Source: Clostridium sp.
GTDB taxonomy: Bacteria > Bacillota > Clostridia > Clostridiales > Clostridiaceae
Direction of reading: 5' to 3'
Assembly (NCBI RefSeq): GCF_016650035.1
Contig: NZ_JAENWM010000007.1
Span: forward strand, 1 to 64,000
Length of the DNA stretch: 64,000 nucleotides
The notes beneath the pieces are model-generated. The model made no database searches and had not been told where the DNA came from. It worked only from the letters and a program-made list of their open reading frames with translations. The position numbers were made by a program, and so were the translations under genes. Of this stretch, positions 3,857 through 21,814 are shown piece by piece. Each line of letters begins with the position of its first letter. Position 1 is the stretch's first letter.

Positions 3857-5485
3857 TCATCTAATTCTTTTTAAAATAGATACAGGTATGAGTTTCGTAA
3901 TCTTACGTGGTAAACCTTCCAAATCTTCTTTAGTTATTCCACCTATAAGCACTAATACGAAGAAATAAGTTAATATAGCTAAAATCATAGAACTTGCTAT
4001 TGCCATAGCATTAGCAAAAAAACCTTCCTTTATAAAACTAAATACAAAATTAAAGTTAATATATATGAGTTTTACAACTATTGCCATAATACCTGATGCT
4101 ATTATGGGTTTAATGGCATGATTAGGCAGATTAATTTTAACCCTTAGTGTTTTGTTCATAGCACTATTGTTAAATATCAAAAGTATCGCAAAACTTACAC
4201 CACTAGCCATAACAGCTCCTAATACGTTAAATCTTGGAATGGCTACAAAAATATAATTAACAATTATTTTTCCCATTAACCCAAACACTGCATAAACGGT
4301 AACTAAATAAAGTTTCCCAAGACCTTGAAGAATTGAAGTTTGAATACTAACCACAGCCATAAGTATTATTACTCCTGACCCATATATAAGTAATCTTGTT
4401 ACATCAGAATCAAAGTGTAGTAGTTCTACTATAGGTTTAGCTAAAACTGCTAGTCCAACTGAGGATGGTACTGCCACTAAAAAACATAGCCTAAAAGCAT
4501 AATTAACCTTTCCCTTTACAGCTTTTTTATCCTTTAATGCCATTAAACTAGAAATAGAAGGCAAAATAGTTATTGCGAGTGCTGTAATAATGGCTATAGG
4601 TACATTTATTAATGTGGTATATTTAGTTAATACACCCCATAAAATTGTAACTTGACTTTTAGACATTCCAGAATCTATCATTCTAGATTTAACTAACCAT
4701 AAATCAATAAATAACCCCGCTTGCTGTATTCCTAAACATATTGTCATTGGAACGGCATAACTTAAAAGCCTTTTTATTATTTTTTTAGTGGTGAGTCTTT
4801 TTATATTTAATTTGTTATATCCTTTAGGAACTCTAAAAACTTTATTCTTTTTATAGGAATTAATCATATATATTACGGCAACTAACGCTCCAATAGTTGT
4901 ACCAATGGTTCCGCCTGCTGCACCTTGTGCCATTCCATATTTTATAAAATACGCTGCAAAAGCTAAGCTAAATATGGTATTTGCAATTTGTTCCAATACC
5001 TGCGATACAGCAGTAGGAGTCATATTTCCTCTTCCTTGGAAATACCCTCTATAAGCTGATAATATAGATGATATTAAAATAGTTGGAGCTAAGGCCATTA
5101 TTGCTAGCTTTGCATTGGCACTTTTAGTTATTATTGATAGGGGTCCTGCAAAAAGAAGCAATAACAAGGACATAACCAGTCCCAATATAAAAAGTAAAAA
5201 TCTAGCTATTTTAAACGTTCTTACTGCATCTTTGTAATTTTCTACAGCTATAAGTTCTGATATCATTTTAGAAATAGCAACTGGAATACCCGCATTTGTT
5301 AAAATATATACATACACAAATATAGGGTATGCAGATGCATATATACCATAGCCATCAGTTCCTAATATGTTATTTAAAAAAGGTACATAGAGTAAAGATA
5401 AAAGCTTAACCATAAAACTTGCTACAGATAATATGGCAAAGCCTTTTGAGGTAGACTGTTTATTTAAATTCACTTTTTCGCTCAT
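3857..5485 (-). CDS. SpoVB/MurJ-like oligosaccharide flippase
   Basis: 542-aa polytopic protein; LNNILGTDGYGIYASAYPIFVYVYILTNAGIPVAISKMISE motif. Confidence 0.8.
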   Translation of the reverse strand: MSEKVNLNKQSTSKGFAILSVASFMVKLLSLLYVPFLNNILGTDGYGIYASAYPIFVYVYILTNAGIPVAISKMISELIAVENYKDAVRTFKIARFLLFILGLVMSLLLLLFAGPLSIITKSANAKLAIMALAPTILISSILSAYRGYFQGRGNMTPTAVSQVLEQIANTIFSLAFAAYFIKYGMAQGAAGGTIGTTIGALVAVIYMINSYKKNKVFRVPKGYNKLNIKRLTTKKIIKRLLSYAVPMTICLGIQQAGLFIDLWLVKSRMIDSGMSKSQVTILWGVLTKYTTLINVPIAIITALAITILPSISSLMALKDKKAVKGKVNYAFRLCFLVAVPSSVGLAVLAKPIVELLHFDSDVTRLLIYGSGVIILMAVVSIQTSILQGLGKLYLVTVYAVFGLMGKIIVNYIFVAIPRFNVLGAVMASGVSFAILLIFNNSAMNKTLRVKINLPNHAIKPIIASGIMAIVVKLIYINFNFVFSFIKEGFFANAMAIASSMILAILTYFFVLVLIGGITKEDLEGLPRKITKLIPVSILKRIR

Positions 5486-5519
5486 TAAATCATCACCTTC
5501 GGTGCTTTAAAACCACCCT

Positions 5520-6473
5520 CTAAAATTTAAATACATCCTTTTTAATCTTTTTAAGTACTGGAGGTAAACTTTCCGCAATGGTTTTGTTTTCCATATAAGC
5601 TAGTTCCTCTGGGCAATTCTTAAATATTGTCTTATATGCATATAAAAATTGATAATCTAAACCATATTTGTTTTGGAAGAAACTATTCATCTTTTTCTCA
5701 CCATATTTTGGATCACCAACAATAGGGTTTCCTAAATGGCTTAAATGAGCACGTAGCTGATGGCTTCTACCTGTTATAAGATTAATATCTACTAGTGAGA
5801 ATGTACCACAACTTTCTATATTTTTAACTTCCATGGCTATTCTTTTTGTATTAGGCATCTTTGTGTCGAATACCTCTGAGATGTTTGCATCCTCGTCTTT
5901 GCGTATATACCCTTCATAAACACCGTCTTTTATTCTGTTTCTTACTAGTGCCATGTAATATTTCTCAACACTTCTTTCTCTTACCATTTCATTTAAAAGT
6001 TTAAGAGAGTTAAAGTTTTTACCAAACATAACTATACCTGAAGTATTTCTGTCTAGCCTATTACAAGGTGCTGGTGTAAAGGTTATTTCATTTTCAGGCC
6101 TATAGTCTCCCTTGTCAAACAAATAAGAAAGAACATAATCCACTAAAGTAGCTTCTCCACCCTTTTTGTCAGAATGAACTAAAACTCCCGGCCATTTTTC
6201 CACCATTAATATATTAGCATCCTCAAATGTTATTTTTAGATTATTATCAATTCTAATAAACTCTTCTTTTTTAAACTCACTGGTAATATATTTTGTTTCA
6301 ACTATATCACCTTGTACTAAAGAATGTTTTTCCTTGATTTTATTACCATTAACCCTAATATCACCTTTTCTAAAAGCCTTATATATTTTACTTAGTGGTA
6401 CATCACCTAGTACTTTTCTCATGAATTTATCTGTTCTTTGTCCTGCTTCATTTGCTCCGATCTCTATCCTCAT
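5520..6473 (-). CDS. RluA-family pseudouridine synthase
   Basis: 317 aa; S4-like N-terminus, catalytic NRLDRNTSG, and TGRSHQLRAHLSHLGNPIVGDPKYG. Confidence 0.93.
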   Translation of the reverse strand: MRIEIGANEAGQRTDKFMRKVLGDVPLSKIYKAFRKGDIRVNGNKIKEKHSLVQGDIVETKYITSEFKKEEFIRIDNNLKITFEDANILMVEKWPGVLVHSDKKGGEATLVDYVLSYLFDKGDYRPENEITFTPAPCNRLDRNTSGIVMFGKNFNSLKLLNEMVRERSVEKYYMALVRNRIKDGVYEGYIRKDEDANISEVFDTKMPNTKRIAMEVKNIESCGTFSLVDINLITGRSHQLRAHLSHLGNPIVGDPKYGEKKMNSFFQNKYGLDYQFLYAYKTIFKNCPEELAYMENKTIAESLPPVLKKIKKDVFKF

Positions 6474-6595
6474 ATGTTTCCTCCTATGTTTCTATATATA
6501 ATGACGTATTCCGCTTATAATCCAATCTATTTTATAATAAATTACCTTACACTTTTCAAAAAATCACATCAAGCTTCAATTATATACTAATTTCG

Positions 6596-7768
6596 TTACA
6601 AATCCAATAGGAATTCATAAGCTAACTTGCATTGCATAGCTACTCCTATGGATAAACAGCTCTCATCTATATCAAATAAAGTTCCATGAGCAGGATGAAC
6701 TATACCTTTTTCTACATTTCCACTTCCTAAAAAATAAAATAACGACGGCCTTTCCAAAGAAAAATAAGAAAAACTTTCTCCTCCCATAGTAGGATGATCT
6801 AATTTATAAACATTATCCGCTCCTATGACTTCACTTGCCAAAGTTTCAAACATTCCTGCCAGCTTATCATTATTATAAAGACAAGGATAGCTTTCCACAA
6901 TATTAATTTCACATTTTCCTCTCATAGATGTAACTATGCCTTCTACTACCTGAATTAATCTAGTCTTTATATACTCCCTATTCTCACTGCTGGTAGTTCT
7001 GATAATTCCAGATATTATAACTTCTTCCGGTATAATATTTTCAGCTGTGCCTCCATGAATGGATCCTATAGTCAGTACTGCAGGATCTGTAGGCGAAATT
7101 TCCCTGCTTATAATATTTTGAAGGGAAGTAATAACACTACTAGCAATTACAATAGGATCAATAGTCATATGTGGACTTGCACCATGTCCTCCCTTACCTA
7201 TTATTTTTATTGTAAATGGATTCGATGCTGCATAGGCTACCCCTCTTTTTAAACCAACTGTTCCTGCTTCTAACCACTCTTCTACATGGAGCCCAAAAAC
7301 AGCATCCACCTTAGGCTCTTCAAGCACTCCCTCTTTAATCATAACCCTTGAGCCACCAGTAGTTTCTTCAGCTGGTTCAAAAAAAAGTTTAATATTACCT
7401 GGGATTTTCTCTTTCATACTATTTAATATTTTGGCCGCACCTAGAAGTATAGTTGTATGAGCGTCATGTCCACAAGCATGCATTTTACCTTTAACTGTAG
7501 AGGAATAATCGCATATCTTCTTATCGTCTAATGGAAGTGCATCCATATCTGCTCTTAAAGCAACAGTCTTTTCGCCCTTACCACGAATAATAGCACAAAT
7601 TCCCGTTCCTGCTACCTCATAATATTCAATGCCTTCCGCTGCTAAAAAGTCTTTTACCTTTTGGGAAGTTCTAAATAAATCAAAGCCTAGTTCTGGATTC
7701 TTATGAAGGTCCCGTCTTATATCTACTAATTGACTATGAATATTTTCTGCCATCTCTAAAAAATTCAC
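6596..7768 (-). CDS. M20-family metal-dependent amidohydrolase
   Basis: RADMDALPL, HACGHDAHTT, GLHVEEW, GGHGASPH motifs; likely GTG start at 7768 after GGAGAGG (ORF track start 7786). Confidence 0.92.
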   Translation of the reverse strand: MNFLEMAENIHSQLVDIRRDLHKNPELGFDLFRTSQKVKDFLAAEGIEYYEVAGTGICAIIRGKGEKTVALRADMDALPLDDKKICDYSSTVKGKMHACGHDAHTTILLGAAKILNSMKEKIPGNIKLFFEPAEETTGGSRVMIKEGVLEEPKVDAVFGLHVEEWLEAGTVGLKRGVAYAASNPFTIKIIGKGGHGASPHMTIDPIVIASSVITSLQNIISREISPTDPAVLTIGSIHGGTAENIIPEEVIISGIIRTTSSENREYIKTRLIQVVEGIVTSMRGKCEINIVESYPCLYNNDKLAGMFETLASEVIGADNVYKLDHPTMGGESFSYFSLERPSLFYFLGSGNVEKGIVHPAHGTLFDIDESCLSIGVAMQCKLAYEFLLDL

Positions 7769-7811
7769 GTTTACACACCTCTCCACTTATTAATATCCTA
7801 AAAAACTATTA

Positions 7812-9821
7812 CTAGTTATCCCAATATATTCGGATTATATCTCCACTATTTAGTGGCTGATAATAACTAGCTTTACTATCATTTAGCGTCAGTATTAGAT
7901 TTCCATTTGATTTAGACAAATCAAAGTCTACATAATCAAATATGTCCACAAAAATATATTTTTCCTTATTTTTAAGAGTTATGATTTTTTTATTAACCTC
8001 CACTACAAGCTCTTTTAATCCTACATCTGATTTATTATGTGCATCTTTAACCTGAACATATTCATTAGTATTTTCCTTTTTTAAAGTTACACTATATATT
8101 CTATCTCCTTCTTTAATAACGTAATCCTTCTGCAGTTCTTTATTATTCATCATAAAAGTTAGAGTACTTTCTTTATTTCCATAATATTTTATATATTCCT
8201 GAATTGTAACTGGGAATTCTATATTTATATCATCATTTTCTTTAATTAGTGAATTTATAAGAGCTCTTTTTCCATTTATGAATGTTACAGGCTCCATATT
8301 TCTTATTTTATCATCAAAATAAAAACTCACAGCTTGAATGTTCTTTACAAAATCAGTAATCTTAGGTTCAGCTTTTTTTCCATCGATGCTGAAAGAAACA
8401 TCGATAATGTCCCCCTCTACAACTTCGGAATCAATATTTGCGATGGAGCTATTTATCTTTATTTCCGCCCCTTTAGCTAAGCTACCAAAGGACACTCGTT
8501 TTATACCATCAACTGTAAATCTAATATTCTTACCGTTCTTACCAATTAATATCTTAGGATTTATACCTTCTTGCACCATTACGTCCATAACAGTATGTTT
8601 ATGTGCATTAAATAGGCTTATAATTTTATCATTTATTGTGACATCAACAAAATCATTTCCTAATCTCTTTACTGATATAAGTGCTATACCTAAAACTGTA
8701 ACCCCAATGCTTCCAAGACTAGCATCACATATACATTCAACTACTGCGTCTCGTCCCTTAATAGCAACCCTTTGTAGTGGCAGATTTAATATTTTAGCAA
8801 TGTTCTCTCTAATAAAAGGAGTATGTGCTCCCCCTCCTACTAGAAATACAGCATTAGGAGATTTCCCTCCATTTAATTCAATTATCTTATTCCCAACTTG
8901 TTCTGCAATCTTCATAACTATAGGGTTAATTATTTTCAATACTTCCTCAGGCTCTATTTCATTTTCAAGACCTAACACATCTATAAATACAATTTTTTCT
9001 TTTCCACTGCACTGCTTTTTAATACTCTCCGCGGCATTAAAATCAACTAAATATGATTGTGCTACTACTTCAGTTACTTCGTCCCCAGCCATTGGTACCA
9101 TACCATATGCACTTATACTGTCTTTACTACTAATAGCAATATCCGCAGTGCCTGCACCAATATCAACTAATGCTAAATTTAGAAGTCGTAAATTCTGTGG
9201 TACTGCAGCTTCCATAGCTGCTATTGGTTCTAAAGTTAAGCTTACAACGGAAAGCTCCGCCTTACTCATAACAGCATAAAGGCTATCAACAACTGAGCGT
9301 GGAAGGAATGTAGCAATTATATCAACCGCAATATTTTCTCCTTTGTGAGCATTCAGATTTGAAATTACATAACCATTTAAATAGTAATTTTTAACACTGT
9401 AGCCTACACAATAAAGCTTACCTTGTGTAGATTTAACAACTTCATCCTCTGCCATTTTAACCGCGGTAATCTCCAAACTTCTAATAGCTTCTCTATTAAT
9501 TTCCTTATCTCCATCTATTTCTATTTCAGCCTTTGTTGTAGTTGTTCTTAAAAACCTTCCCGCAGCAGCAATAGCTACTTTAGTTAAGGAAATATTTAAG
9601 TTACTCTCCAATTCATTTTTTACCTTTTTCACTCCACTAGCTACGGAGTCAATATCATGAATTTGACCATCAATCATAGCCCTATCCTCATGTTCTATAT
9701 AACTTTCGGAAAGAACCTTAAATTTCTTCTCTGATATTACTCCAACTGTCCCTATAATGGACCTTGTTCCTATATCTAAAGCAAATATTAGTCCCTCTTT
9801 ATTAACATTTGTGATATCCAT
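7812..9821 (-). CDS. FtsA-like actin-fold protein with long C-terminal extension
   Basis: 669 aa; FALDIGTRSI, ALVDIGAGTADIAI, VFLVGGGAHTPF actin/FtsA signatures; about 270 aa beyond the ATPase core. Confidence 0.8.
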   Translation of the reverse strand: MDITNVNKEGLIFALDIGTRSIIGTVGVISEKKFKVLSESYIEHEDRAMIDGQIHDIDSVASGVKKVKNELESNLNISLTKVAIAAAGRFLRTTTTKAEIEIDGDKEINREAIRSLEITAVKMAEDEVVKSTQGKLYCVGYSVKNYYLNGYVISNLNAHKGENIAVDIIATFLPRSVVDSLYAVMSKAELSVVSLTLEPIAAMEAAVPQNLRLLNLALVDIGAGTADIAISSKDSISAYGMVPMAGDEVTEVVAQSYLVDFNAAESIKKQCSGKEKIVFIDVLGLENEIEPEEVLKIINPIVMKIAEQVGNKIIELNGGKSPNAVFLVGGGAHTPFIRENIAKILNLPLQRVAIKGRDAVVECICDASLGSIGVTVLGIALISVKRLGNDFVDVTINDKIISLFNAHKHTVMDVMVQEGINPKILIGKNGKNIRFTVDGIKRVSFGSLAKGAEIKINSSIANIDSEVVEGDIIDVSFSIDGKKAEPKITDFVKNIQAVSFYFDDKIRNMEPVTFINGKRALINSLIKENDDINIEFPVTIQEYIKYYGNKESTLTFMMNNKELQKDYVIKEGDRIYSVTLKKENTNEYVQVKDAHNKSDVGLKELVVEVNKKIITLKNKEKYIFVDIFDYVDFDLSKSNGNLILTLNDSKASYYQPLNSGDIIRIYWDN

Positions 9822-9844
9822 TTTTATACCTCTTCCTCACAAAA

Positions 9845-9879
9845 TACTAAGCTCATATTAATAAAATATGAGCTTAGTA
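9845..9879 (-). terminator. perfect 15-bp hairpin followed by TTTT on the minus strand
   Basis: TACTAAGCTCATATT-AATAA-AATATGAGCTTAGTA; lies between 9916-10215(-) and the FtsA-like gene. Confidence 0.65.
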
Positions 9880-9915
9880 AAATTATATAACATTATATTG
9901 CAATATTCAACAAAA

Positions 9916-10215
9916 CTACTGCATTAACTTAATTACTCCAGAATTTTCTGATATATAAGGCAATTGTTTTACAATAGTGTAAATGTATTTTGGTTTTGAT
10001 TTCTCATCTTTTAAAACCTGTTCTAAGGATAATTCATTATAATACAGTAACTTACACCAAAAATCCACAAAATCATCTCTTGTAATAAAAATTACATCAT
10101 CTCGCTCTTTAACTGTAAATCCACAATTGAACTTTTCTAAAATTTTTATATCTGAGTAATCCTCCCTGGATAAAATCGATCGCACATCTTCCCACATTTT
10201 CTTAAAGGCAACCAT
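9916..10215 (-). CDS. conserved hypothetical protein, 99 aa
   Basis: ORF with AGGAGG-type RBS just upstream. Confidence 0.6.
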   Translation of the reverse strand: MVAFKKMWEDVRSILSREDYSDIKILEKFNCGFTVKERDDVIFITRDDFVDFWCKLLYYNELSLEQVLKDEKSKPKYIYTIVKQLPYISENSGVIKLMQ

Positions 10216-10363
10216 TGAAACTCCTCCTTAACTAACAATTTCCTCTATAGTATATCTGATTTTCACCCATTGTCAAATATTGCTGTCTATTACATTATAT
10301 GTTTCTTTTTTTACTTTATAACCTGAATTACTAAATAAAAAAAATTTATTTAAACTCTTGATA

Positions 10364-10507
10364 TTATTTATGTTTTCCTTTTTTCTTCTTTTTAAGATTT
10401 CCTTTTCTACCAATAGATTCAGTAGGCTTATCCTTTGATGTTGCTTTGATACCTTTAGCCTTTTCTATAGCAATATTAATAGAGTTTTTCCCTTTTGGAA
10501 GTGCCAC
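10364..10507 (-). CDS. small lysine-rich protein, 47 aa (MALPKGKNSINIAIEKAKGIKATSKDKPTESIGRKGNLKKKKKGKHK)
   Basis: GTG start 7 nt after AAGGAGGG RBS, clean stop; not in the supplied ORF track (below its apparent length cut-off). Confidence 0.7.
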   Translation of the reverse strand: MALPKGKNSINIAIEKAKGIKATSKDKPTESIGRKGNLKKKKKGKHK

Positions 10508-10551
10508 AATAAATCCCTCCTTATATTAGAAACTCTTATATTCTTAAATTT

Positions 10552-12603
10552 CTAGTCCACTTTTGATATTAGAGAATTATTATATAGTACCTTAGCATCA
10601 AATTTTCTTATAATTCCCCCATCAAACTGCAAGACTAAATCATTATTTGTAATAGAAATTACTTTTCCCTTGCCAAAACTTTTATGCAGCACCGTATCTC
10701 CTTCTTTAAAAGGAAAATTCGTACCATCTTCTCCTATAATATTGCACTCCACAATAAATCGTGAGGTTTCTTTTACTTTTCCTTTTATATTTTTAGAAAT
10801 GCAAAGCCAAACATTGTCTATAGCTCTTGTAATCCCTACATAAAACAGCCTTCTTTCTTCCTCTATGTTTTTATCCATGCTATTTACATGTGGGATATTT
10901 TCCTCATTACAATTTATAAGGAATACGTTTTTAAACTCCATACCCTTTACCCCGTGGATCGTACTAAGTATCACCGCATCGTCCTCTGTGCTTTTCTTAT
11001 GCTTTTTAATCTCCTCTTTAACCTGCTCTACATGGGCTAGAAAAGCTATTATAGAGTTATATCCTTCTATTGATTGTCTAAACTCGTCTATAACGTCCTC
11101 CATCTCACTTAAATCAATCTTAAATTTTGTGCAATATTCTTTAATATTATCATGATAACCTATACTTAAAACTATATTATCTACAGCACTTTTTAATGAG
11201 ATTTTATTTAGACTATGAATATCTTTTTTTAATTTATCTAACATCTTCATTTGAAACACTGGTGTACCGTCGATATCCTTTACCATTTCAAAACAGTCAT
11301 CCTTTACAGAATTTCTTCTTAATTTATCTAAATTTAATTTACTTATATATCTAAAGGGCTTATTAATTATTCGAAGAAAACTATCTCTATCAGTTTTATC
11401 AATGCTCAGTTTTAAATATGCTATTATATCTTTGCAAATGAAATGCTCAAAAAAATCATACTCCTTATCTAAAAGCAGAAAAGGGATTCTTTTTTTAATG
11501 AAAACATCTATTAGACTTCTACACTCTACATTTGTTCTGTATAATATGGCATTATCTCTATAATTTTTATCCTGTACACCATTTCGTTCTTCAATGATAC
11601 AACTGATTTCCTCTGCCTGATAACTTTCATTTACATTGTTAAGTACCGTAATACCACCATCTTGCTGTTTAAAAGCACTTATGTATTTTTCATTCCTCAT
11701 GCTATTATTCTTTATAATACTCATGGATATTTCCACTATATTTTTTGGACATCTGTAGTTAGTGGATAAGGGTAATTTCCCTCCACCGTCAAAACGTTCA
11801 GAAAACTTAACCATACATTCAGGATTAGAGCCTCTAAAGCCATAAATACATTGGTCTTCGTCACCTACTGCAAAAATTGAATTACCCTCGTTTATAAGTT
11901 TTAATATTTCCACTTGCATGGAATCACAGTCTTGAAATTCATCAACTAAAACATGTTTAAATAAGTTTTTATAACCTTTAAGCAGTGTATAATCTTTTAT
12001 AAACAAGTCTCTACAACCTATTTGAAGATCATCAAAATCATATAAGTTTCTTTCTTTCCTATACTGTTCATAAATATTATAGGCTGCTGTAAAGATTCCT
12101 TTATCAATACTTGAAGAGAAGCTTTCCAGATCATCGCCACTAGTCTTAAACACGGAAATATTATTTATTACTTCCTTTACTTTTTCATCACTTACTTCAT
12201 CTAAATAAGACATTAATACATTTTTTATTAGTTTATATACTTCTAGTGTATTAATTATAGTTATATCCCCATAATAATTTTTAAGAATTTTATAAAATAG
12301 GCCATGAAACGTTCCAAAAAACGGAACTCTTTCATTTCCATTAATAGCAACATATCTCTTTTTCATATTAATTGCCGCAGCTCTTGTAAACGTAATTACG
12401 ATAATATTTTTAGGGTTTATTTTTTTATGATTTATTAAATAAACAATTCTATTAACGATAACTACTGTCTTACCTGATCCCGGACCTGCTGTAACTAATA
12501 AATTTCTGCTATCAGAAAAAACTGCTGCTTTTTGTTCCTCACTTAAATTTGTATTCATTTTATTTTTTACTACTTTATTATTTATAATTTGTTTTGTCTC
12601 CAC
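10552..12603 (-). CDS. UvrD/PcrA-family ATP-dependent DNA helicase
   Basis: VTAGPGSGKT, VDEFQDCD, VGDEDQCIYGFRGS, TIHGVKGMEFKNVFL, RRLFYVGITRA motifs. Confidence 0.93.
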   Translation of the reverse strand: METKQIINNKVVKNKMNTNLSEEQKAAVFSDSRNLLVTAGPGSGKTVVIVNRIVYLINHKKINPKNIIVITFTRAAAINMKKRYVAINGNERVPFFGTFHGLFYKILKNYYGDITIINTLEVYKLIKNVLMSYLDEVSDEKVKEVINNISVFKTSGDDLESFSSSIDKGIFTAAYNIYEQYRKERNLYDFDDLQIGCRDLFIKDYTLLKGYKNLFKHVLVDEFQDCDSMQVEILKLINEGNSIFAVGDEDQCIYGFRGSNPECMVKFSERFDGGGKLPLSTNYRCPKNIVEISMSIIKNNSMRNEKYISAFKQQDGGITVLNNVNESYQAEEISCIIEERNGVQDKNYRDNAILYRTNVECRSLIDVFIKKRIPFLLLDKEYDFFEHFICKDIIAYLKLSIDKTDRDSFLRIINKPFRYISKLNLDKLRRNSVKDDCFEMVKDIDGTPVFQMKMLDKLKKDIHSLNKISLKSAVDNIVLSIGYHDNIKEYCTKFKIDLSEMEDVIDEFRQSIEGYNSIIAFLAHVEQVKEEIKKHKKSTEDDAVILSTIHGVKGMEFKNVFLINCNEENIPHVNSMDKNIEEERRLFYVGITRAIDNVWLCISKNIKGKVKETSRFIVECNIIGEDGTNFPFKEGDTVLHKSFGKGKVISITNNDLVLQFDGGIIRKFDAKVLYNNSLISKVD

Positions 12604-15657: not shown

Positions 15658-16341
15658 CTAATTATTCACGCCATCCTCTAAATACTTCCACTCTACAATG
15701 TCACCAAACTTTAGTGTATAAGCTCCGCAGCTTACACCGGGCTTAACTCCATTTACGTAATAACACCAACCACTTAGTGGCCCAGAACCTCTTACCTTAA
15801 GGTCATACATCCTTGTAACATAAGTTGATTCCCCTCTTCCGGACGCTGCATAGTTATTGCCTAATTCATTACGTGTAATATCAGCTACTGTTTTATTCTC
15901 AATATTTACATATACAGATAAAATAATTTTACCAGAGATATCATCTTTAATTATTAAATTAGGTTTTTTTACAGGTTCTTTTTTAGGTTCAGGAGCTTTG
16001 GGAGGTATATCTTTTTTTACAACTACTACTTCTTTCTTTTCAACTACTACATTTTCAGTGCTAGTAGTCTTTGTATCTGTTGTTTTATTTTCCACTATCG
16101 CTTTTGTTTCCTGCTCCTTAACTTCTGGTTTAGCATCATCTTTCAGTGTTTCCACTTTAACCGTTTGTTCTTGTATATCTTTCTCTTTTACAACTACTTC
16201 TGCTGATTTTGAGTCTTTTTCTTCCTGCTGCAGCGCAGCGGTATTTTTATTTAGGTATTTGTCTTGTACAATTTTTGTAATACTTAAAAGCCCTACGCTT
16301 ATTAATATAACTGTAGCTACAAGTAATATTTTCTTTTTCAA
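15658..16341 (-). CDS. N-terminally anchored DUF4430 (transcobalamin C-terminal-like) protein
   Basis: signal/TM helix, E/K/P-rich linker, C-terminal SGWCYYVNGVKPGVSCGAYTLKFGDIVEWKY typical of DUF4430. Confidence 0.8.
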   Translation of the reverse strand: MKKKILLVATVILISVGLLSITKIVQDKYLNKNTAALQQEEKDSKSAEVVVKEKDIQEQTVKVETLKDDAKPEVKEQETKAIVENKTTDTKTTSTENVVVEKKEVVVVKKDIPPKAPEPKKEPVKKPNLIIKDDISGKIILSVYVNIENKTVADITRNELGNNYAASGRGESTYVTRMYDLKVRGSGPLSGWCYYVNGVKPGVSCGAYTLKFGDIVEWKYLEDGVNN

Positions 16342-16390
16342 CTAAATCACTCTCTTCTATTCTGACATTATAGACCATTTGTATTATATA

Positions 16391-18202
16391 CTATTTTTCA
16401 CTACTAATCTTTCTTGTGTACAACACTCCTATAACCATAAAGAGCATCCCTAAAACTATAAGAACATTAGTATCAATAGTGGACCCCGTTTGAGGTAATG
16501 TATTAGCCTCTGCTTCATTTGTAGTTTCAATTTTATCAGTTGTTGTACTATCCCCTAAAACAAAAACTGGCAGCTCTTTTGCATTAATATCGCTAGAGTA
16601 AAAATCATATTTCCCAGAAGTTTTATATTCTTTAATTGCTATTAGCGCTCTAAGTACCTGCTCTGTAGATGTATAGTTTGACTTAGTGTCTTCTACTAAA
16701 TGCTTAAACCCTCCATCTTCAGCTTTAAAGGATAACAGTGCTGAAACTAAATCACCTTTGGCTTTAATAAATGTTTCTCCCTCTGGATCTATTCCTACAG
16801 ACGTAAGTCCTAATATAACAAAAGCTGTGGTTTCACTAGCTAAACCATATTGACTAATGCTGTATCCACTTTCATTTTGTAATATAGACAGAGAATTAAC
16901 AGCTGCATCAATAGCTGCTTTAACATCTGGTTTTGTACTAGAAAATTCTGATAGAGCATTTATAGCCGCTCCTGTCATGTCTGGATCTATTTTGTCTCCA
17001 TAATAAGTCCATCCTACCATTTTATCTGCATCATAACTTAACTTTGATTTCATTATAATATCAGCTAATTTTTCTTTAGAAACTTTGTAATCTTCCTCTA
17101 TGTTGGCATAGTTATAAGCAAAGATTCCAAACACCGCATCATTAATTAAAAATGTATTTATATCTCTATTAAACAGCTCTGAAACTAAATCGTAACCCTC
17201 CACATTATAAGGCGTATATCCGGCGGCCGTTAAGCCTATAATTAGTTTTTCAATGTCTGTATTGATTAAATCTTTTACACCATTTACCTTAATATCTTCA
17301 ATACTCTCTTTTAAGAAGGTAGTGTCTACTTTTTCACCTAACGTATTTAAACTAACAGCAGACCAAGTATCAATTCCCTTAGCATTTACAGCTGCAACCG
17401 AACTATTTATTGCCTGAGAAATTTCTTTTGTAATTGTAGTATTGTCTACAACTTCAGCTGTAATATTTTCACTTTCCTCCACCACGGGTGCTACTTCTTT
17501 TCCTATAGTAAATTCTATTTTATCATAAACTACTTTTGGAGATGCCTCAGTCCTAAAATCGCTTAACTCAAGAGTATGAGTTCCTACTTCTAGTCCTGCT
17601 GCAAGTGTAATTTTATTATCCACAACTACTACATCCTTGTCATCAATTTTAGCCATTATTCCAGTAATAGGTTGAATTACTTCCTTTTTCGTTGTGTAAT
17701 CTTCATAAGTGTTATTTAAACTAATAGTTAATTCAACATTTGCATCCTTAGTTGAATAATCTATTTTATTTGCCGTCATAGTTCCCATATCTCCATAATA
17801 TAAAATAAGCTTATCCCCGTTTTCTAATGTTGCACCATCAATAGCTGAAGCAATATCTTCATAACTGTTATTTCTTCTTATTGCATAAAGCCACCCATCA
17901 TATCCACCAAATTTTGCGCTATTTATTCCACCAATTTCCGAAATAAATTTTCCCCAGTCTTCATCATTAGAAGTCATAGATATATTATTTTTATCTAATA
18001 CCTCTTTTAAAGCCTCAAACCCATTTGATTTACTAGATGTTCCTGTTGTAATTATTTTTTCAAACCCTTCTACCTGCACTGAAACCTCAAAATCATTTTC
18101 TACTGCTTTAACCATTGTACTAGCTCCTGTAAGAATTTGACCCATTACGAATATTAATACCAAAGCCATAGTGTAAATCTTCATTTTCATTGTTTTTCTC
18201 AT
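16391..18202 (-). CDS. LPXTG surface protein: DUF4430 domain + linker domain + alpha-alpha helical (prenyltransferase/transcobalamin-barrel-like) repeats
   Basis: signal peptide; FGGYDGWLYAIRRNN...LENGDKLILYYG (DUF4430-like); helical repeats (MTGAAINALSEF, SEFVILGLTSVGIDPEG-type); C-terminal LPQTGS + TM + basic tail. Confidence 0.78.
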   Translation of the reverse strand: MRKTMKMKIYTMALVLIFVMGQILTGASTMVKAVENDFEVSVQVEGFEKIITTGTSSKSNGFEALKEVLDKNNISMTSNDEDWGKFISEIGGINSAKFGGYDGWLYAIRRNNSYEDIASAIDGATLENGDKLILYYGDMGTMTANKIDYSTKDANVELTISLNNTYEDYTTKKEVIQPITGIMAKIDDKDVVVVDNKITLAAGLEVGTHTLELSDFRTEASPKVVYDKIEFTIGKEVAPVVEESENITAEVVDNTTITKEISQAINSSVAAVNAKGIDTWSAVSLNTLGEKVDTTFLKESIEDIKVNGVKDLINTDIEKLIIGLTAAGYTPYNVEGYDLVSELFNRDINTFLINDAVFGIFAYNYANIEEDYKVSKEKLADIIMKSKLSYDADKMVGWTYYGDKIDPDMTGAAINALSEFSSTKPDVKAAIDAAVNSLSILQNESGYSISQYGLASETTAFVILGLTSVGIDPEGETFIKAKGDLVSALLSFKAEDGGFKHLVEDTKSNYTSTEQVLRALIAIKEYKTSGKYDFYSSDINAKELPVFVLGDSTTTDKIETTNEAEANTLPQTGSTIDTNVLIVLGMLFMVIGVLYTRKISSEK

Positions 18203-18214
18203 TATTATTTCCCC

Positions 18215-18916
18215 CTAGAATTTTTCAATATTTTTAATGTAAGTTATTTCTAATTTGCTTTTAAATCTAGTTAAAACTTTGTAGAAACTTTCGTAAAAAA
18301 TCAAAGCAAAAATAAAATTTCCCACCGCATGCATTATATCTGCACTAACACTTGTAAGATAAATTGTTAGAATACCCTTAATACTAATTGGGTCTAATAT
18401 TATAAGCACCGACCATAAATTCATTATCCAATCAAACAAAAATCCGTATAAGAAACATATAATTGCAAATTTTTCTACGGAAAGTTTTTTACCTCTTTTA
18501 CCTATTAAGCCTGAAAGTGCTCCAACTATACCCCAGGCAAGCATCTGCCAAGGGGTATAAGGGCCTTGACCAAGAAAAATATTTGAAATAAATGCTGCTG
18601 TGCTTCCAACCAAAAACCCTTCATACGGTCCAAATACTAGTCCAGATAAGGCTACTAAGAAAGTTGTTGGCTGAACATTTAGTATGGCCACAAAAGGTAT
18701 TCTGCTAATTGCTGCAAATACGCTTAAGGTAGCTATAACGGCTATTTCTTTAGTACCCATAGAACTTTTTTCGAAATAAAAATAACTTAAAAATATTATT
18801 AAAAACACAGCTATAGTTACACTTAATGACATATTAATATAACTCTTATATTTTATACCCAGCACTATTAGAAGTATTGGAATTAAAAATGTAAAATACA
18901 TTGTAATTTTTTTCAC
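18215..18916 (-). CDS. ECF transporter S component (predicted cobalamin/corrinoid specificity)
   Basis: 233 aa; IAVIATLSVFAAISRIPF ... ALSGLVFGPYEGFLVGSTAAFISNIFLGQGPYTPWQMLAWG ECF S-component pattern; riboswitch-linked operon. Confidence 0.82.
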   Translation of the reverse strand: MKKITMYFTFLIPILLIVLGIKYKSYINMSLSVTIAVFLIIFLSYFYFEKSSMGTKEIAVIATLSVFAAISRIPFVAILNVQPTTFLVALSGLVFGPYEGFLVGSTAAFISNIFLGQGPYTPWQMLAWGIVGALSGLIGKRGKKLSVEKFAIICFLYGFLFDWIMNLWSVLIILDPISIKGILTIYLTSVSADIMHAVGNFIFALIFYESFYKVLTRFKSKLEITYIKNIEKF

Positions 18917-20580
18917 TATTTCACCTTCAAATTAAGCTTATTTGAACTTACTTCGGTTTCTTCAAAATCTTTTAAAGTAAAAATATCGCTATTCCTATTT
19001 CTAAAAACTTTATTAATGGTGGTGGTATAATAAATCCCTGTACCAAGAATTTCTTGGCAGGTTCCATCCCCTACTATTTCACCATTAAACATTAATAAAA
19101 ACCTACTACAAAATTCTGCTGCAAAATCTACGTCGTGGGTTACAAGTATTATAGAAGTCCCATTTTTATTGAGTTCTTGTAGTATCTCACCTAGCATTGT
19201 TTTCACCTTTGAATCTAGTCCCCTAGTTGGCTCATCTAACAGTAAAACTTTAGGTTTGAGAACCAAAATTGAGGCTATGGCAACTCTCTGAATCTCACCA
19301 CCACTAAGGTCTCTTGGATTCTTATTCTTTAACTTGTAAATATCTAAAGCTTTTAGAGTATCTTCTATAACCTGATAGTCTTTAATATTGTAATTATCTA
19401 AAGTAAATTTTAATTCATCATAAACCGTTTCCTTTGATATATAATCATTAGGATTTTGTGAAACATATCCTATAATCCTTGCTATATCTTTGATTTTCAG
19501 CTTTTTAATTTCTTTATACTGTCCACTAAAATTCACTTTAACACTACCACTATATTTTAGAAGGCCCATAAGTGATTTTAAAAAAGTTGTTTTTCCACCG
19601 CCGTTAGCCCCCATAACACCAATGAATTCACCTTGTTTTATGCTAGTGTTTAAATCTTTAATAACTATATTTTCATCATATTTACAGTTCAAATTTTCAA
19701 TTCTTATAAGTTCTTCACTGTTAGATGAATTTTCATCTAGTAGTCTCGGTTTATATTCATATGTAAATTCTTCAATAGCCCTTCTTGCGTCCCTTAAACC
19801 ATAAGGCATATTTGTAATATCTAAATCTTTTGATATTTTTAAATAATTAGGTAAAAATATCTGAAGTTCTTTATTTTTCTCATTATAAAGCTCCTGTTTA
19901 CTTCCTGAAAAAGCTATTTCTCCTTTAGATAATATAAGGATTTTATCAGCAATATCAAAACATTTATGGATCCTCTGTTCAATAATTATAATGGTAATTC
20001 CTAGTTCATCGTTTATTTTCTTTATAAGTCCGATAACATCTTCTGCAGAAGCTGGATCTAATTGTGACGTAGGTTCATCTAAAATAATACAATTTGGTAA
20101 ATAAACTATTGCAGAGGTTATAGCAACTCTTTGTTTTTGACCACCTGATAGTGTATTAATGTCTCTATTTGCTATATCTAATATGTTAGAAAACTGCATA
20201 GCTTCAAAAATCCTTCTCTTCATTTCCGAACTTTCAACACCAACATTTTCAAGTCCAAAAGCAATCTCCCTGTGAACTTTATTCATAATCAGTTGACTTT
20301 CTGGATCTTGAAAAACCATCGTTACCTCACTTGCCCTTTTGCTATGTTCCATTTCTGTTACTTCATTACCATCTATTGTTACACTGCCTTTTATCTTACC
20401 TCCATAAAAATTTGGTACAGCTCCTGAAATACATTTAGCCAACGTTGATTTTCCTGATCCTGATTCTCCTACAACGAATAAAATTTCTCCTCTATCAACT
20501 TTTAAATTTATATTTTGAAGCACCGGTTTTGACTCTTTAGGATAGTAGTAGGTTAGTTCCTTCATCTCTATATATGACAT
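18916..20580 (-). CDS. ECF transporter ATPase, two fused ABC domains (EcfA1A2-like)
   Basis: two Walker A motifs (GESGSGKST, GANGGGKTT), two signatures (LSGGQKQR, LSGGEIQR), two Walker B (CIILDEPTS, VLLLDEPTR). Confidence 0.92.
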   Translation of the reverse strand: MSYIEMKELTYYYPKESKPVLQNINLKVDRGEILFVVGESGSGKSTLAKCISGAVPNFYGGKIKGSVTIDGNEVTEMEHSKRASEVTMVFQDPESQLIMNKVHREIAFGLENVGVESSEMKRRIFEAMQFSNILDIANRDINTLSGGQKQRVAITSAIVYLPNCIILDEPTSQLDPASAEDVIGLIKKINDELGITIIIIEQRIHKCFDIADKILILSKGEIAFSGSKQELYNEKNKELQIFLPNYLKISKDLDITNMPYGLRDARRAIEEFTYEYKPRLLDENSSNSEELIRIENLNCKYDENIVIKDLNTSIKQGEFIGVMGANGGGKTTFLKSLMGLLKYSGSVKVNFSGQYKEIKKLKIKDIARIIGYVSQNPNDYISKETVYDELKFTLDNYNIKDYQVIEDTLKALDIYKLKNKNPRDLSGGEIQRVAIASILVLKPKVLLLDEPTRGLDSKVKTMLGEILQELNKNGTSIILVTHDVDFAAEFCSRFLLMFNGEIVGDGTCQEILGTGIYYTTTINKVFRNRNSDIFTLKDFEETEVSSNKLNLKVK

Positions 20581-20603
20581 TTTATTTGCTCCCTGTAGTA
20601 GTA

Positions 20604-21461
20604 TTATTTATGTTTTATTTTCTTAGCTAGAATAATTTCTATTATGATTACTAATATTAGTAGGACTATAACCCAGTAATTTATAAGTTGCGATGCACTA
20701 ACCTTCATATATATATCAAAATCATCCAAGCCACTTGCCTTTATTATCAAATAAAAAATCAGTGCAGCACTGCTGCCTATAATTGTTAAATAATCAGTTG
20801 TTTGGAGCCTAGGCTTATCATATACAGTTCTTTTACCACTTAAAAACCCTCTCACATAGGCAGCTTCACCTATACCAAAAGCTCCCTCTAACGAATCTTC
20901 CAGCAAAACAGATAATACCGGTATATTGCTTTTGATCTTCTCTTTTAGCTTTTTGCTCTCGAAGTCAACACCCCTTATGCTGTATATTTCCTTTAAGTTT
21001 ATAATTCTATTTTTCATATTCGGAAATATTTTAAGTGAAATCATAATGGTTAATGTTGATTTTGGCAATTTAGAAGAAAAATATGATGATGCCACATCTG
21101 TATCTATAATTATTGAAACTACCATAAACAAATAAATTACCACTAAAAGTTTAAATGCTAATATAGCACCATAAAGTAAAGCTTCTAATGTGAATCTTTC
21201 CCCAAATAAATAAAATAAAGTAGTACTTCCCTGTGCCACAAAAATCATATTAACCACTATGGCTAAGATTGAAAATGGAACAAAATATTTAAAGCCATTT
21301 TTAAGTTTCTCCACATTTCCGCTATATATCATAGTAATAGCGCAGAACATAAAAATTATTGTTAGCACCATTGGATTTCTGCATAAAAAGGTTATTACAA
21401 GTAAATTTATCCCTAAAAGGGCTGCTGTCAAAACATGAATTTTGTTACTTTCACTAACCAT
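20604..21461 (-). CDS. ECF transporter transmembrane component EcfT
   Basis: 285 aa polytopic; AAYVRGFLSGKRTVYD coupling-helix-type motif; operon with EcfA and S component. Confidence 0.85.
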   Translation of the reverse strand: MVSESNKIHVLTAALLGINLLVITFLCRNPMVLTIIFMFCAITMIYSGNVEKLKNGFKYFVPFSILAIVVNMIFVAQGSTTLFYLFGERFTLEALLYGAILAFKLLVVIYLFMVVSIIIDTDVASSYFSSKLPKSTLTIMISLKIFPNMKNRIINLKEIYSIRGVDFESKKLKEKIKSNIPVLSVLLEDSLEGAFGIGEAAYVRGFLSGKRTVYDKPRLQTTDYLTIIGSSAALIFYLIIKASGLDDFDIYMKVSASQLINYWVIVLLILVIIIEIILAKKIKHK

Positions 21462-21491
21462 AATTCCTCCTGTTAATATTTCCTACAAATC

Positions 21492-21516
21492 AAAAAAACC
21501 GAACTTAAAAGTTCGG
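21492..21516 (-). terminator. rho-independent terminator at the 3' end of the riboswitch leader
   Basis: minus-strand CCGAACTT-TT-AAGTTCGG followed by TTTTTTT. Confidence 0.9.
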
Positions 21517-21574
21517 TGAAGGTCTATATAATATAAGCCTTTACCTTCCCTCCGAAGATATTGTATTGTTTATA

Positions 21575-21722
21575 CTTATAAAAGATATCCTGGCTTTCAC
21601 TTCGTCCTAAAGGTACCCTTCCCTAACGTTTTTAAACATCGTTAAGTGGTAATATACCCGTCGTCCATGATTACAGTAGCGGGGGCTGCTGTGGCATTAA
21701 ACCACATTCCCTTTTATAATTA
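21575..21722 (-). promoter_or_regulatory. cobalamin (B12) riboswitch aptamer
   Basis: minus strand: closing stem TTATAAAAG...CTTTTATAA; GGGAATGTGGTTTAATGCCACAGCAGCCCCCGCTACTGTAA core; B12 box AAGTGAAAGCCAGGAT. Confidence 0.95.
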
Positions 21723-21814
21723 CATGTTATATTTAATTATTTCTATAATACAATTATATTGTTATTATATTTAATTGTCTACTCTTTTATAACAAATCCA
21801 ATAAAATTGTTTTG

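Follow-up and report, generated by a model that had tools for sequence, protein, structure and literature searches.

The analysed window, a 64-kb stretch (positions 1 to 64,000 of contig NZ_JAENWM010000007.1) of a 3.97 Mb genome whose closest named relatives are Clostridium species, carries an operon of five minus-strand genes behind a cobalamin (vitamin B12) riboswitch. The genes encode an energy-coupling factor (ECF) transporter of the CbrT family and two surface proteins with transcobalamin-type domains. The original prediction, made from the letters of this stretch, had placed a cobalamin riboswitch and a terminator ahead of five tightly spaced genes, and the Rfam match, the terminator hairpin and the open reading frame (ORF) coordinates listed below bear this out.

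21753-21781, minus strand: promoter-like site TAGACA-17-TATAAT directly upstream of the riboswitch, top score of the scan (11/12)
21563-21761, minus strand: cobalamin riboswitch (RF00174; Rfam, 82 bits, E=1.2e-18)
21498-21517, minus strand: intrinsic terminator (expression platform) separating the riboswitch from the EcfT gene, made up of a hairpin of 8 bp and a TTTTTT run
20604-21461, minus strand: EcfT, CbrV-like transmembrane energizing subunit (family profile against a solved EcfT structure 7.6e-26; CbiQ matched in 17/21 family members)
18916-20580, minus strand: fused EcfA-EcfA' ATPase, CbrU-like, with two ABC domains (TIGR04520, 3.2e-118; ABC_tran in two stretches)
18215-18916, minus strand: S component of the CbrT family, CbrT being cobalamin-specific in L. 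delbrueckii (6FNP_A the sole PDB sequence match)
16391-18202, minus strand: sortase-anchored surface protein with signal-like N-terminus, DUF4430, second beta domain, alpha/alpha barrel and LPQTG motif
15658-16341, minus strand: DUF4430 protein with N-terminal membrane anchor, long charged linker and C-terminal DUF4430 (Pfam DUF4430, 6.5e-11)

The riboswitch lies above the Rfam gathering cut-off for RF00174 (31.5 bits), and Cobalamin was the single RNA family found by Rfam in the window. Judging by its RNA family, it would permit read-through past the terminator when intracellular cobalamin is low. The gaps between the five genes are, in order, 23, -1, 12 and 49 nt, the same sizes as first reported. 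A hairpin scan of the region revealed no convincing terminator between the genes, and promoter-like sites in the operon region, including the best 11/12 site, were no commoner than in shuffled sequence.

The first three genes had been read as EcfT, fused EcfA and an S component, and family searches confirmed all three. The window EcfT alone gave no Pfam match, and its assignment comes from the family profile and its relatives. The S component, in which family searches found ECF S-component domains, matched chain A of 6FNP in PDB (3.3e-8 as a single sequence, 4.3e-26 as a profile) and no other clear relative there. The 6FNP structure is ECF-CbrT of Lactobacillus delbrueckii, for which uptake of cobalamin and cobinamide was shown biochemically (PMC5997447). 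Because the S component is homologous to this proven CbrT, the transporter half can be assigned, by homology, as a CbrT-type B12 ECF transporter. EcfT and EcfA also belong to the same families as those of ECF-CbrT, with two EcfA ATPase domains in each case, and the S component, fused ATPase and EcfT correspond to the annotation classes CbrT, CbrU and CbrV, respectively. However, CbrT of L. delbrueckii uses a shared general ECF module, whereas the module of the window appears to be dedicated, and the window operon differs further in its fused ATPases, surface receptors and riboswitch. In lactobacilli, DUF4430 genes adjoin B12 genes, and a Lacticaseibacillus protein is annotated as 'additional lipoprotein component of putative cobalamin ECF transporter' (PMC9963975). 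A five-gene locus of Latilactobacillus curvatus (L158, 3769-9411; CP117684.1) encodes barrel-LPXTG, DUF4430, EcfT, EcfA and S proteins; the record was deposited as a 592-kb plasmid, and no riboswitch was found there.

The domains of the two surface proteins map as follows.

17789-18079, minus strand: N-terminal DUF4430 (transcobalamin beta-domain-like), residues 42-138 of the LPXTG protein (iterated HMM 4e-18 to 7e-23; 5NO0 match)
17501-17782, minus strand: second all-beta domain, residues 141-234 of the LPXTG protein (AlphaFold secondary structure, pLDDT mostly 80-92)
16595-17425, minus strand: alpha/alpha barrel, residues 260-536 of the LPXTG protein (family HMM 1e-89; Foldseek matches to toroids including transcobalamin)
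16484-16498, minus strand: LPQTG sortase motif, then a hydrophobic stretch and a basic tail (Gram_pos_anchor / TIGR01167)
15670-15957, minus strand: DUF4430 of the small protein, residues 129-224 (iterated HMM 6e-26)

The larger protein (603 aa) has a hydrophobic, signal-like N-terminus and was indeed, as had been proposed, an LPXTG protein with a DUF4430 domain and helical repeats. Its DUF4430 scored 21.1 bits, just below the Pfam cut-off of 23.8, and a profile built from relatives recovered this domain (4e-18) as well as the barrel (1e-89); the second beta domain matched no Pfam family. The small protein (227 aa), encoded by the last operon gene in near relatives too, had been described as a second anchored DUF4430 protein. 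Both the domain and the anchoring stood, with the correction that the anchor is a hydrophobic N-terminal membrane segment; lipobox and LPXTG motif are both absent.

The likeness of DUF4430 to the C-terminal domain of transcobalamin, on which the original prediction leaned, was seen at the level of sequence. All of the DUF4430 domains sampled from related operons (50/50) matched Pfam DUF4430, and the profile built from these operons reached human haptocorrin (6e-7), transcobalamin-2 (2e-5) and intrinsic factor (0.004) among PDB sequences. The alignment with haptocorrin included aligned motifs and, within them, the one invariant W. The same profile also matched 3U7Z, from Ruminococcus gnavus, which bears the label 'putative metal binding'. 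PDB sequence searches with the first barrel alignment (A1) gave weak cyclase matches only, and those with the whole small-protein alignment (A2) gave matches to the low-complexity linker only.

Structural comparison with transcobalamin and intrinsic factor had been named as a test that could refute the prediction, and both halves of the window protein matched. The LPXTG protein was modelled by AlphaFold with 35 relatives (pLDDT 86). By Foldseek against PDB, the model matched transcobalamin (7QBE, E=9.8e-5) amid other alpha/alpha toroids, namely farnesyltransferase, complement C3/C4/C5 and cyclases, and, separately, it aligned with 5NO0, the beta domain of human transcobalamin in isolated form (TM-score 0.68, by target length). 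As the barrel match alone is not specific, we modelled a relative having the barrel-then-DUF4430 order, the order of transcobalamin, which is present in relatives such as L145. For the barrel-DUF4430 protein of Schinkia azotoformans, PDB ranks 1-15 were all transcobalamin, haptocorrin or intrinsic factor, at E values of 1e-11 to 3e-8, and the next fold appeared at 1e-5. The overall TM-scores were about 0.40-0.46 with large rmsd, which may reflect a different placement of the domains in the ligand-free model.

Vertebrate B12 carriers are soluble and are taken up via receptors. Transcobalamin, haptocorrin and intrinsic factor share with the window protein an alpha/alpha barrel and a DUF4430/SLBB beta domain, in the same order and size in some bacterial relatives. 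In the window protein, by contrast, the beta domain comes first, and the chain carries an additional beta domain and is anchored to the wall; its operon also encodes a second DUF4430 on a separate protein.

Searching genomes for the barrel family gave 76 loci spread over Bacillota, in Clostridium, Caloramator, Ruminococcus, Paenibacillus and further Bacillales. The co-occurrence of DUF4430 proteins, ECF genes and B12 riboswitches, which the original prediction suggested surveying, was extensive: at least one ECF subunit was present in 66/76 loci, and a riboswitch model built from nearer relatives matched in 57/76, with every match (66/66) on the operon strand. Since the loci share descent and are not independent, chance values for the association are only indicative; with this in mind, the 66 matches observed against about 1.7 roughly expected genomically led us to reject chance as their source. 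About nine of the matches, the weakest, came from gut Clostridia with short riboswitches. When weak matches were re-scanned with Rfam, four were Cobalamin, one was AdoCbl, and those of L116 and L121 fell below threshold. Starting from the S component, barrel and S component co-occurred across 59 relatives (21/24 vs 2/35, p=8e-11), and in the three exceptions the barrel was present by a more sensitive profile. In one genome, the riboswitch directly precedes the barrel and DUF4430 genes (L069), while the ECF genes, in the order T-A-S, lie on another contig (L070) without a riboswitch. This argues against transcription of the surface-protein genes from a separate, B12-independent promoter. Riboswitches directly before barrel genes were also found in many Bacillales and Ruminococcus loci.

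Several loci of the survey showed unusual gene structures. Desulfotruncus arcticus has, after a cobalamin riboswitch, an ORF of 3953 aa that encodes both barrel and DUF4430 domains (L100, 1654-13515), and a second riboswitch lies ahead of another DUF4430 gene. A riboswitch-associated protein of 2063 aa in Calidifontibacillus oryziterrae (L133, 6079-12270) carries nine tandem DUF4430 domains before its barrels. The ATPase and S component form one ORF of about 880-950 aa, an apparent EcfA-S fusion, in Ruminococcus, mostly R. bromii (L116, L130, L135, L139 and L157). The operon of Caloramator sp. mosi_1 (L096, 6425-12032) is broken into short ORFs, with the S and barrel pieces split, as a result of either pseudogene formation or sequencing errors.

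The genome-wide context of the window was built from single-family searches. Three sortases and five cobalamin riboswitches were found in the genome; by position, the other four riboswitches face a cob operon, hemA with tetrapyrrole genes, a CbiMNQO cobalt uptake locus and NrdD/NrdG. Genes for corrin biosynthesis include CbiD and CobD/CbiB, and because CbiD is present the organism probably makes corrinoid besides importing it. The riboswitch facing the anaerobic ribonucleotide reductase genes NrdD/NrdG (L171, G000:C108; riboswitch 7790-7910, genes 5438-7546 and 4918-5421, all minus strand) is consistent with B12 repressing a B12-independent enzyme. In the same locus, a BtuFCD-like FecCD/periplasmic-binding/ABC importer (8088-11737, minus strand) adjoins a nitrite/sulfite-reductase-like gene; it lies upstream of the nearby cobalamin riboswitch and, by orientation, is not under its control.

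The riboswitch, the CbrT-family S component, the transcobalamin-type domains and their conserved association support the earlier interpretation of a Gram-positive corrinoid capture and uptake system, and we consider it highly probable that the operon is a riboswitch-controlled system of this kind. Low intracellular cobalamin would allow read-through past the terminator, and cobalamin would repress the operon. The wall-anchored barrel/beta protein and the membrane-tethered DUF4430 protein would then capture corrinoid outside the cell. From fold and homology, we infer that the barrel and a beta domain close around it in the manner of intrinsic factor and transcobalamin. The ligand would next be handed to the CbrT-family S component, through which the dedicated module of EcfT and fused ATPase, a transporter identified by homology, would import it. 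More tentatively, and as a possibility that we would take seriously without favouring it, the two halves of the binder may reside on separate surface proteins, the barrel on the wall-anchored and DUF4430 on the membrane-tethered one, which would assemble round the corrinoid and pass it to the S component. When the two domains of human transcobalamin are produced as separate chains, they associate only in the presence of cobalamin (PMC5599065), so that separate domains can work.

Several observations weigh against a capture system of the intrinsic-factor type. By sequence the barrel is nearer to squalene-hopene cyclase and prenyltransferase toroids than to transcobalamin, so that a barrel cannot by itself serve as a diagnostic feature. 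DUF4430 of the window protein lies N-terminal of the barrel, the reverse of the transcobalamin order, and domain placement in the model is not fixed (pTM 0.55). Further, the genome encodes corrin biosynthesis, so that the organism may not depend on uptake.

Among the alternatives, the one that survives best concerns the cargo, which in place of cobalamin itself could be a different corrinoid (cobinamide or another cobamide) or a tetrapyrrole such as heme. CbrT also imports cobinamide (PMC5997447), cobamides are highly varied, and a heme ECF transporter is known (PMC7299338); the cobalamin riboswitch and the homology to CbrT nevertheless favour corrinoids over heme. We regard this alternative as unlikely, and it mostly refines the explanation given above, as no result separates one cobamide from another.

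It is more doubtful still that the surface proteins, though related to corrinoids, are not an intrinsic-factor pair, with DUF4430 alone binding and the barrel serving as a scaffold, an adhesin or an enzyme module of the terpene-cyclase/prenyltransferase type. The best sequence scores of the barrels are indeed with squalene-hopene cyclase and prenyltransferase toroids, and the isolated beta domain of human transcobalamin binds cobalamin on its own (PMC5599065). Against this, for the unit of both domains, transcobalamin, haptocorrin and intrinsic factor are far better matches than any cyclase, and prenyl diphosphates would not be met by an extracellular protein. A functional terpene cyclase was rejected for the barrel, as the position of the class II DxDD motif reads DPDM or DPDI and the protein is extracellular. 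Riboswitch control of the ECF genes only, with unrelated adhesins downstream, might be suggested by the 49-nt gap before the last gene and by promoter-like sites throughout, but is very improbable: the genes are not separated by any credible terminator, promoter-like sites are as numerous in shuffles, the genes occur together in several families and orders, and riboswitches stand immediately ahead of barrel genes in L069 as well as in many loci of Bacillales and Ruminococcus.

The suspicion that related loci were already catalogued proved right. Burroughs et al. (2007) described a transcobalamin-like SLBB clade of Gram-positive bacteria whose secreted or wall-anchored members carry the toroid on one side or the other of SLBB and whose CbiO/CbiQ operons encode a further SLBB protein, predicted B12 scavenging computationally, and proposed a transfer of B12 carriers from Gram-positive bacteria to animals (PMC1796856). 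The window operon agrees with this class in joining a transcobalamin-type SLBB (=DUF4430) domain and an alpha/alpha toroid in one wall-anchored protein, and in its CbiO-like ATPase, CbiQ-like membrane protein and second SLBB protein. Its membership in a class widespread in Gram-positive bacteria and predicted in 2007 is thus well supported. Riboswitches, however, are unmentioned in that work (0 occurrences in the text of PMC1796856), and the carriers described there usually lack key B12 biosynthetic enzymes, whereas CbiD and a cob operon behind a riboswitch are present in the genome of the window. What the present analysis adds is the link to the riboswitch, the CbrT assignment, support at the level of structure, a genome with ECF and receptor genes apart, and occurrence alongside corrin biosynthesis. 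The literature searched, mostly without subscription journals, contained no experimental test of these surface proteins, so a later one may exist. The BtuG-type surface lipoproteins of Bacteroides (PMC6143338) are likewise surface-exposed and capture B12 for an importer, but they act in a Gram-negative outer-membrane setting and are compared here as functional analogues only.

Finding the transporters of B12 and its precursors was named an open problem in a 2019 survey of gut genomes (PMC6593275), and little is known about how scarce corrinoids are captured across the thick wall of Gram-positive bacteria. The operon offers a compact set of proteins for testing ideas on both capture and origin. 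Should the split binder prove true, an ECF importer would here be served by a capture relay outside the cell, and the vertebrate B12 carriers would have a counterpart in living bacteria. If confirmed, the family would explain corrinoid capture in many Bacillota, including Ruminococcus bromii of the gut and Paenibacillus of soil, and would support the 2007 proposal that animal B12 carriers derived from Gram-positive bacteria.

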